From the NCBI RefSeq assembly GCF_004099695.1, contig NZ_SCHL01000019.1, forward strand, positions 1-64,000: a DNA stretch of 64,000 nucleotides. The letters are read 5' to 3'. This document shows positions 54,725-57,737 of this stretch, piece after piece. Numbering within the stretch: position 1 is the stretch's first letter; every line of letters starts with the position of its first letter. The notes below the pieces were generated by a model. It was not told the DNA's origin, did not search any database, and saw nothing but the letters and a program-made list of their open reading frames with translations. The stretch is from Methanosarcina sp. MSH10X1. GTDB taxonomy: Archaea; Halobacteriota; Methanosarcinia; Methanosarcinales; Methanosarcinaceae. The position numbers and the translations under genes are program-made.

Positions 54725-55078
54725 TCAGTACTTAATGTAGCCTTTCCGTTCAAGCCATTCGACCTGAGGCCTTGTATATTTCCAGGCTACTTCCGCTTTG
54801 GAGTCTTGCACTTCCCAGGGATTGGCTATTACAACGTCTCCTTCGCGAATCCACATCCTCTTCTTTTTAGAGCCTGGAATCCGGCCCATGCGGACAACTC
54901 CATCCATACATTGAAGCGTTACCCTTTTCGAGCCGAGTAAACTCGCAACCGTTGCCAGGACTTCATTTCTGTCCTTGCGAGGAATCCGTACCCTTGATAC
55001 TTCAGGGGTATCTCCTGAGTTTACTGGTTTTGTAGATCCTGATCTTCTTTTTCTAATAGTGCTTCTATAATTAGCCAG
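54725..55078 (-). CDS. eif1A: Translation initiation factor aIF1A, copy 1, apparent CTG start
   Basis: From CTG 55078 the product has 117 residues: [13 protein letters not shown] at the basic N-terminal tail, then the OB-fold [46 protein letters not shown] and the C-terminal helix [11 protein letters not shown]. aIF1A binds the A site of the small ribosomal subunit and assists start-codon selection. The in-frame sequence upstream reads TAA GGA GGA ATT AAC CTG GCT: a stop, the SD, then CTG at seven bases spacing, and the first in-frame ATG (54907) lies inside the OB fold. So a non-AUG start is required. Neighbour: a zinc-ribbon protein gene upstream on the same strand, in the same arrangement as copy 2. 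Confidence 0.88.
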
Positions 55079-55085
55079 GTTAATT

Positions 55086-55090
55086 CCTCC
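55086..55090 (-). promoter_or_regulatory. SD GGAGG that places the aIF1A copy 1 start at CTG
   Basis: GGAGG, seven bases, CTG. An in-frame TAA stands directly before this SD, so no upstream standard start can exist. Confidence 0.8.
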
Positions 55091-55248
55091 TTAATATACT
55101 TTATGATTTTTTATTATAGGTTTTGGGTTGAACAGTTTGTGTCAATCCTCACTTTCGATGCCTGTTTGTTTCTATTCTTCCTTTCCTCAGATGTGGAAAT
55201 AAGTGAAGAAACAAAGAGAATAAACAAAAAAACAAAAAGAAAAGATGA

Positions 55249-55290
55249 ATCAGGCGTTAATGTAACCTTAATTACGAAATAATGCCTGAT
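55249..55290 (-). terminator. Hairpin downstream of zinc-ribbon gene, copy 1
   Basis: ATCAGGC and GCCTGAT form an inverted repeat around an AT-rich loop; on the minus strand it is followed by a T-rich tract (TCATCTTTTCTTTTTG). The same element follows the zinc-ribbon gene of copy 2. Confidence 0.6.
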
Positions 55291-55312
55291 GCAGATTATT
55301 CTTAAAATTTTT

Positions 55313-55493
55313 TGTGGTTAGGAAAACGTTCCCTGTAAAGTGCTCTTTTCAAACTGCAAAAGGTCACAGGTAAATAAGTATATTCAGGTCTAAAATAGAC
55401 CTGAAATATGGAACGAATAAGTGTTGATGTAAACTCAGTTACACAAACAATATTTAGTATCTGCGGTTTTCTCTGGGTGTCCTGTGGTTAGGA
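55313..55493. repeat. 170-bp segment flanked by TGTGGTTAGGA direct repeats, containing repeat copy I
   Basis: TGTGGTTAGGA occurs at 55313-55323 and 55483-55493. The 170-base period is absent from the paralogous site near 57275, where only one TGTGGTTAGGA is present. The segment holds the core of the accessory-zone repeat (CCCTGTAAAGTGCTC, GCAAAAGGTCAC; 55324-55375). Confidence 0.75.
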
Positions 55494-55642
55494 AGACATT
55501 CTCTGCAGTAAACCGGTCTTTCCGGGTCAGGTTTGAAAGGCACTTCTGTCTCAGCTTTACAGTCTGAACAGGTTGTCTTGTGCATTTCTCTGGGAGCGCC
55601 GAAGTTAGAATTTCCTCTGAAGTTTCTGTCATTAAAAGCCAT
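55454..55642 (-). CDS. CxxC-x17-CxxC zinc-ribbon protein, copy 1
   Basis: A 62-residue protein: basic Asn/Arg/Gly-rich head (AFNDRNFRGNSNFG), then CSDC and CREC separated by exactly 17 residues, the pattern of a small zinc-binding family often tied to RNA or nucleic-acid binding. GGTGA precedes ATG 55642. The tail NHRTPRENRRY differs from the copy 2 ending NHRKF because the 170-base segment begins inside the coding sequence. Likely role: nucleic-acid binding, next to aIF1A; not demonstrated. Confidence 0.82.
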   Translation of the reverse strand: MAFNDRNFRGNSNFGAPREMHKTTCSDCKAETEVPFKPDPERPVYCRECLPNHRTPRENRRY

Positions 55643-55707
55643 TTTTGTTTCACCTTGTTTTAGTTTTTGTTATTTGTTTGAAAATAAGATTGTATAGAAC
55701 TCTTTGA

Positions 55708-55731
55708 TTAAAAACAAAAATTGGTTTTTAA
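55708..55731 (-). promoter_or_regulatory. Inverted repeat upstream of zinc-ribbon gene, copy 1
   Basis: TTAAAAAC and GGTTTTTAA arms around AAAAATT form a 24-base near-palindrome about 65 bases before the gene, adjoining a TATA-like CTATACAATC. The same element occurs at copy 2. Confidence 0.6.
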
Positions 55732-55742
55732 TAACAGATGAT

Positions 55743-56330
55743 TATACGGATCTTTATTTGTCAACACACATACATAGCAGTTAAAATATATAAATGTATC
55801 GATGGAAAACACAAAACCAGACTATTCTTTCTTTTCGAGAACCCTTTAATCCTTCCGGATTCATGAATTTCCTGGCTGACATCTGGCTATACTGACGTCT
55901 GGCTATAACTTGACCTGATTTGTGTCTCGCTGTTTAGATATCAGGTTCGTTCAAGAGAGTCGACATAACCCTGTCTTTTTTTTCTCCATCTGAGTATCCT
56001 TTTCGCAATCCAATAAAACACAACCATCTTAAGGACATAAAGTAATATAAGAAACAATATCATGTAACACTCTTGATCTTATTGAGAACAGAATCGCCTG
56101 CTTCATCCAGCTCTTTTTAGATATCAAACATGGTCAACTTGCTCATATAAGCATAATCATTGCGAAACTTCTATGCGGAAGTTGTCTCTGATAATTTTAT
56201 AAATTTCTGTGCTGATCTATTTGTCTATACTTGCATCTTGCACAGCACATATTAAGCTTCCGATTCACAACTCCAAATTGGCTGCTTCTCCTCAATCTGA
56301 ATTGTCAAAAATTTATTCTGTTGATCAACT
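55743..56330. other. Gene-free region between the two aIF1A modules
   Basis: No intact gene is seen. On the minus strand near 56130-56070 a fragment reads MFDI, stop, KELDEAGDSVLNKIKSV, which looks like a decayed small helical protein. Confidence 0.35.
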
Positions 56331-56429
56331 TCAGCCCGTAAAATACTCCTTCTAAATCTACAAAACCCTGGGTTTTAGTTTTTTTAGATTGGGGCATGCA
56401 GCTCGCAGGAAAAATATATTAACATTGAG
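56331..56429 (+). repeat. Accessory-zone repeat, copy J (partial)
   Basis: Retains AGCCCGTAAAATACTCCTTC, CTACAAAACCCTGGGTTTTAG and the right edge GCAGGAAAAATATATTAAC; the left end and the middle are shortened. Confidence 0.65.
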
Positions 56430-56641
56430 TTAAAATAGAATGGAAAAAGTCAGCATTCTTCTATAGCAATCATAAGTGCTAAAGTACATGATACGCCAAT
56501 AAGTTATTGTCTATATAACCTGGCTCGCATCAAAGCAGGCGCGTTCCTGCAGAAAAGTGAAAATATGGATTTCAGGTATCTTTTTCAGACACCTTTATTT
56601 AAGATACCTTTATCAGGCATCTTCAGTCTGATACTTCTAGA

Positions 56642-56995
56642 TCAGTACTTAATGTAGCCTTTTCGCTCAAGCCATTCGACCTGAGGCCTTGTGTATTTCC
56701 AGGTTACTTCGGCTTTGGAGTCCTGCACTTCCCAGGGATTGGCTATTACAACATCGCCTTCGCGAATCCACATCCTCTTCTTTTTAGAGCCTGGAATCCG
56801 GCCCATGCGGACAACTCCGTCCATGCATTGAAGCGTTACCCTTTTCGAACCGAGTAAACACGCAACTGTTGCCAGGACTTCATTTCTGTCCTTGCGGGGG
56901 ATTCTTACCCTGGATACTTCAGGGGTATCTCCTGAGTTTACTGGTTTTGTAGATCCTGATCTTCTTTTTCTAATAGTGCTTCTATAGTTAGCCAG
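56642..56995 (-). CDS. eif1A: Translation initiation factor aIF1A, copy 2, apparent CTG start
   Basis: A 117-residue paralogue nearly identical to copy 1 (for example [10 protein letters not shown] in place of [10 protein letters not shown], and TWKYT in place of AWKYT). From CTG 56995 the N-terminus is [26 protein letters not shown] stands seven bases upstream of the CTG, as in copy 1. Here the frame happens to stay open further upstream, to an ATG at 57187, but those residues are AT-rich non-protein-like sequence upstream of the SD. The two copies arose by duplication of an aIF1A plus zinc-ribbon module; both frames are intact, so both are probably expressed. Confidence 0.88.
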
Positions 56996-57002
56996 GTTAA
57001 TT

Positions 57003-57007
57003 CCTCC
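57003..57007 (-). promoter_or_regulatory. SD GGAGG that places the aIF1A copy 2 start at CTG
   Basis: Same SD-spacer-CTG arrangement as copy 1 (GGAGGAATTAACCTGGC), conserved although the bases further upstream have diverged. Confidence 0.75.
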
Positions 57008-57201
57008 TTGATAATCTATGATTGATTTTTTATAAGTGGAAATTAATGAGTTGAGTTGAAAAATTAATAAGTCGAAAATTGAATGATTCTTACCAATTAT
57101 TATTCTCAATGCCTTTTTGTCCTTACTTTTTCCTGCTGCACGAGTTGAAAATAAGCAAGAAACAAGAGAGAATAAACCAAAAAACAAAAAGAAAAAGATG
57201 A

Positions 57202-57261: not shown

Positions 57262-57444
57262 TTAGAATTTCCTGTGGTTAGGAAGACATTCTCTGCAGTA
57301 TACTGGCCTGCCTTCGGTAGGTTTGAAAGGTACTTCCGTTTCAACACCGCAGTCAGAACAGGTTACTTTTGTCATTTCCCTTGGTCCGCTGTTACCACGG
57401 AAACCTCCGGAATTTCCCCTGAAATTTCTGTCATTAAAAGCCAT
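57262..57444 (-). CDS. CxxC-x17-CxxC zinc-ribbon protein, copy 2
   Basis: A 60-residue protein: AFNDRNFRGNSGGFRGNSG head with two FRGNSG repeats (RGG-like, suggestive of RNA contact), then CSDC, 17 residues, CREC and NHRKF. A strong GGAGGTGA SD lies nine bases before ATG 57444. Upstream of aIF1A copy 2 on the same strand, separated by a conserved terminator-like hairpin, so each gene has its own signals. Function is inferred only. Confidence 0.85.
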   Translation of the reverse strand: MAFNDRNFRGNSGGFRGNSGPREMTKVTCSDCGVETEVPFKPTEGRPVYCRECLPNHRKF

Positions 57445-57509
57445 TTTCGTTTCACCTCCGCTTTAGCAAATAATCAATAGTTAAAAACAAGATTGTATAG
57501 CCCCTTACA

Positions 57510-57533
57510 TTAAAAAACAAAATTGGTTTTTAA
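57510..57533 (-). promoter_or_regulatory. Inverted repeat upstream of zinc-ribbon gene, copy 2
   Basis: TTAAAAAAC and GGTTTTTAA arms, matching the element at 55708-55731 in sequence and in distance to the gene and to the TATA-like CTATACAATC. Confidence 0.6.
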
Positions 57534-57737
57534 TGACAGATTATACGTCTCTTTATTTTCGATGCATGATACACTATATAGTCAAATTATATAAAAGCAT
57601 CTATAGTAAAGGAAGTACACTCTCTCAAATGAGAAAAATTTTTAAATTAATTCCCAGAGAAGGTAGCCAGACCATTTATAGATGGCTTCTAAAAGTAGGA
57701 TTACTTAAAAAATTTCACTATAATTCGAAAACAGCCC

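Follow-up and report, generated by a model that had tools for sequence, protein, structure and literature searches.

Background

The bacterial infC gene, which encodes IF3, has an AUU start codon and is under translational autocontrol (Butler et al. 1987, as cited in PMC9845219). In eukaryotes, eIF1 (SUI1) is autoregulated through an AUG codon in a poor context (PMC5756025, PMC6237735). In Archaea, aIF1A is known at the family level to sit before the A site and to act in start selection together with aIF1 and aIF2 (PMC6412873, PMC7531240), and it is essential in H. volcanii as a gene pair (PMC3828320). The basic N-terminal tail of yeast eIF1A promotes, rather than suppresses, near-cognate initiation (PMC5756025). 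In bacteria, CUG starts make up 0.024% of the annotated ORFs according to a figure given in PMC9845219. In M. mazei, ATG is the start codon of 79% of the longer genes and CTG that of 5% of the newly found small ORFs (PMC11456600).

A sequence-only reading of a 64,000-nucleotide stretch of Methanosarcina DNA (the window, part of contig 10 of a 3.56 Mb genome) had proposed that its two aIF1A genes start with CUG and, by analogy with infC, that this start could allow autoregulation. The aIF1A genes resemble infC in that both encode an initiation factor acting in start selection, have a conserved non-AUG start and retain the Shine-Dalgarno sequence (SD), and an obligate non-AUG start of the kind found in infC-type genes was indeed observed. 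They differ in that the codon is CUG instead of AUU, the host is an archaeon and the autocontrol is a proposal. Moreover, the window product is a homologue of IF1/eIF1A (TIGR00523, PF01176) and not the counterpart of IF3/eIF1. The analogy thus fits in that a weak start is selected for in the gene of an initiation factor, but not gene for gene, because the counterpart of IF3 is aIF1, which starts with ATG. The likeness to eIF1 is that the mRNA of a start-selection factor carries a weak start site, although eIF1 keeps its AUG, whereas in aIF1A, the eIF1A homologue, the codon itself is weak. A literature search, mostly outside subscription journals, turned up no description of aIF1A starting at CUG, nor of conserved non-AUG start codons in the genes of archaeal initiation factors; the CTG starts may already be entered in database records without remark.

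Results

The two copies in the window are tandemly duplicated at a spacing of about 1.9 kb (Table 1). The curated cut-offs of TIGR00523 (102.9 bits) and PF01176 (30.2 bits) were both passed, and the two proteins are ordinary members of the archaeal aIF1A family, from which they are set apart by an extended, basic N-terminal tail (beginning LANYRS), the CUG start and the presence of five copies in the genome. A small zinc-ribbon gene (CxxC-x17-CxxC) lies upstream of each copy. A remnant of a second zinc-ribbon tail (ending in ERFPNHKKF and a stop, approximately 55302-55340, minus strand) lies between the zinc-ribbon gene and copy 1.

Table 1. Features of the two aIF1A genes in the window
Feature	Position	Strand	Remarks
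aIF1A paralogue, copy 1	54725..55078	-	117 codons plus stop, CTG start; TIGR00523 124.7 bits, PF01176 64.2 bits
CTG start codon, copy 1	55076..55078	-	Position kept among relatives
Shine-Dalgarno GGAGG, copy 1	55086..55090	-	7 nt 5' of CTG
In-frame TAA abutting SD, copy 1	55091..55093	-	Rules out an upstream start for copy 1
First in-frame ATG/GTG/TTG, copy 1	54905..54907	-	ATG, Met58, within OB fold; 60-aa ORF 54725..54907
aIF1A paralogue, copy 2	56642..56995	-	117 codons plus stop, CTG start; protein 98% identical to copy 1
CTG start codon, copy 2	56993..56995	-	Homology and SD
Shine-Dalgarno GGAGG, copy 2	57003..57007	-	Same 7-nt spacer as copy 1

The layout given in the earlier reading was confirmed on the minus strand, where both copies have GGAGG followed by AATTAAC and CTG GCT. 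In copy 1, the sequence reads TAA GGA GGA ATT AAC CTG GCT and the frame ends at 54725. The OB fold (PF01176) comprises residues 38-100, and the observation that a stop directly precedes the SD while the first standard start falls inside this fold proved correct, so that a non-standard start is required. Copy 2 has no stop just upstream, the open frame reaching back to 57202 and containing a TTG at 57187, and its CTG is consequently assigned by homology and by the SD. When codons placed behind an SD were counted across the window, the tally of 10 CTG and 11 ATG told little, most of the CTG codons being internal to other frames.

The start proposed for the two window copies held, but the count did not, since the genome has five aIF1A genes, all of which begin with CTG or TTG. 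Two further extended paralogues on contig 11 start with TTG and CTG. The canonical short aIF1A, which is located in an operon with RIO kinase and a KH protein, has the start region TGA GGT ATC AAA CTG GCA GAC and no standard start 5' of the OB fold.

A census of 287 distinct aIF1A genes was made in the non-haloarchaeal Halobacteriota, leaving aside the haloarchaea, the L257 lineage, Thermoplasmatota and Methanococci. The codon at the start position was CTG in 241 genes, TTG in 34, ATG in 7, TTA in 3, CCG in 1 and unassigned in 1; GTG did not occur. A non-AUG codon (CTG, TTG or TTA) was thus conserved in 278 of the 287 genes. The start was assigned by hand in L042, L051, L135, L084, L103, L201, L202 and L333. 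AUG at the exact position, the observation named beforehand as telling against a CUG start, was found in only 2 of the 117 Methanosarcinaceae paralogues, the rest having almost all CTG or TTG. Every canonical aIF1A examined within the genus Methanosarcina had a CTG start, in most cases preceded by a stop at a distance of three or four codons. CTG was also the start in other Methanosarcinaceae and in ANME-2, Methanoperedens, Methanothrix, Methanocella, Mnemosynella and Methanomicrobiales-like lineages, the lineage names being in part inferred from named hits, sizes and neighbors. Archaeoglobaceae had CTG or TTG and a family that is probably ANME-1 (f11) had TTG.

Other codons were found in a few lineages. 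ATG was used in Methanimicrococcus, two paralogues (L098, L107), one distant lineage (L257) and Methanocaldococcus, GTG or TTG in Methanothermococcus, and ATG or GTG in haloarchaea, where the SD is mostly missing. In Methanimicrococcus and a near relative (L200-L202, L309, L333), the ATG was coupled with a weak or absent SD. The paralogues with TTA (L016, L088, L020) or CCG (L090) have open frames, and either initiation occurs at UUA or the start was lost in redundant copies. One Methanomicrobiales-like gene (L197) has no NTG before the aIF1A core; its sole near-cognate codon is in ATT AAC CAG behind GGAG, a possible AUU start.

The position of the codon relative to the SD was read in the aligned SD register, taking into account the extended SD GAGGTGAT. 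The spacing was exactly 7 in 214 of the 240 aligned CTG genes. In 149 of the 240, the stretch from the upstream in-frame stop to the OB core contained no ATG, GTG or TTG, and in six the stop abutted the CTG. The codon following the CTG varied by lineage (GCT, CAG, TAT, GAT, AAA, AAC) while the CTG itself was constant. The ATT, ATC, GTT or GAT located two codons before the CTG was considered as a start and rejected; it is GAT in Methanothrix- and Methanocella-type leaders and is out of frame in L003 and L014.

Since the aIF1A genes are not independent of one another, changes were counted as parsimony steps on a tree of the 287 genes built from core codons. The first base of the start codon changed 18 times (C in 242 genes, T in 37, A in 7, G never), the second once and the third three times. 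By comparison, the third base of two conserved leucine codons took 61 and 81 steps, and four-fold sites took 75-98. Judged by the census and the tree test, the CTG/SD pattern is far beyond chance.

These counts bear on the reading that the CTG encodes a conserved leucine and that translation begins upstream, or reaches this frame by a frameshift from an upstream frame. CTG, TTG and TTA are all leucine codons and the upstream frame is open in some genes, copy 2 for example, but several observations make this very improbable, 1) in-frame stops lie 0-4 codons upstream in many lineages (TGA GGT ATC AAA CTG; TAA CTG), 2) CTC, CTT and CTA, which a leucine constraint would permit, were never found, and the third base was nearly frozen, unlike that of the conserved leucines, and 3) the upstream codons were not conserved as protein. 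Nor did the codon drift to ATG or GTG, as a free start codon would. A sequencing error, or a real start further downstream with the N-terminal tail not made, is harder still to credit, because more than 200 genes, drawn from many assemblies, carry the same codon, the next standard start falls within the OB fold and the changes in the tail are mostly synonymous (GCT/GCA/GCG/GCC, AAT/AAC, TAT/TAC). We are therefore highly confident that aIF1A starts at CUG, a codon that selection almost certainly maintains against AUG and GUG.

Non-AUG starts are not common to translation genes at large, since the RIO kinase gene directly downstream of the canonical aIF1A had an ATG start at the loci examined, 20 of 22 aIF1 genes began with ATG (the remaining two, Methanocellales-like copies, had TTG or GTG), and aIF2-beta and aIF2-alpha had an early ATG, usually with an SD. 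Folding of the aIF1A leaders of both window copies detected no structure (z +0.4 and +1.1) and there was no match in Rfam, so that control by a leader hairpin is not indicated.

Discussion

CUG, a codon hardly used as a prokaryotic start, is fixed in a single type of gene throughout much of an archaeal phylum, and archaeal initiation must tolerate it in vivo. Gene-finding software that does not consider CTG as a start will shorten aIF1A or overlook it. That the codon was held against AUG and GUG while the SD was kept makes it look like a regulatory setting, and the fixation of a weak CUG across more than 200 genes suggests that the cells sense or limit the amount of this start-codon-selecting factor.

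In the proposed mechanism, aIF1A would be translated from a CUG at the optimal distance behind the SD, presumably by Met-tRNAi with a first-position mismatch. A good SD combined with a poor codon would make the output depend on how strictly the initiation complex rejects mismatches, and aIF1A, with aIF1 and aIF2, would then feed back on its own synthesis if, as we infer, the permissiveness toward near-cognate codons depends on these factors. The loop would be negative if aIF1A strengthened rejection together with aIF1. It could also be positive, since the basic tail of yeast eIF1A promotes near-cognate initiation and the basic aIF1A tail might likewise stabilize mismatched complexes. The negative sign appears somewhat likelier.

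The simpler reading is that the CUG acts as a constant brake, capping the output of several copies with a good SD at a low and fixed level without any feedback. A fixed low output of this kind accounts for much of what is seen, which is a point against feedback; nearly all of the variants seen (CTG, TTG, TTA) are weak starts and, as noted above, the ATG of Methanimicrococcus comes with a weak or absent SD, as if output were balanced. However, a weaker SD or a GTG could lower the output as well, yet GTG was never seen and the SD was kept at a spacing of 7. Moreover, the setting is specific to the gene of a start-selection factor and is absent from its operon neighbor, RIO kinase. A fixed brake is a tenable but somewhat doubtful account of the whole.

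Autoregulation like that of infC or eIF1 would appear to be the best explanation of the aIF1A CUG. We incline slightly toward the explanation as a whole, regulation included, in which the CUG is a stringency-dependent setting that feeds back on aIF1A synthesis and in which, with the same slight preference, the CUG start is ancestral in the non-haloarchaeal Halobacteriota. The broader proposition, that throughout the Halobacteriota, apart from the haloarchaea and a few reverted lineages, the ancestral CUG senses start-codon stringency as an archaeal parallel, evolved independently, to the autoregulation of infC and eIF1, has about an even chance of being correct. The ATG starts of Methanimicrococcus and the two other paralogues indicate that the CUG is dispensable on an evolutionary scale. 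If the regulatory interpretation is true, the control of initiation factors by way of weak start sites on their own mRNAs extends to the third domain. The aIF1A CUG is also a natural reporter for start-codon stringency in the genetically tractable Methanosarcina.

A separate observation concerns the zinc-ribbon genes (zf_Tbcl_2, CxxC). In their leaders (55600-55745 and 57400-57545, minus strand), a stretch at about -97 is complementary to the gene's own start region (AAAATGGCTTTTAATGACAGA). The complementarity was present in all 64 genes checked, with 21-27 of 30 positions pairing. No match was found in Rfam. Among 73 leaders, the core stem was formed in 98.9% of cells, and both arms were nearly invariant with little covariation. 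The predicted hairpin (fold z -4.1 and -3.8) would bury the AUG and is a candidate regulatory element.
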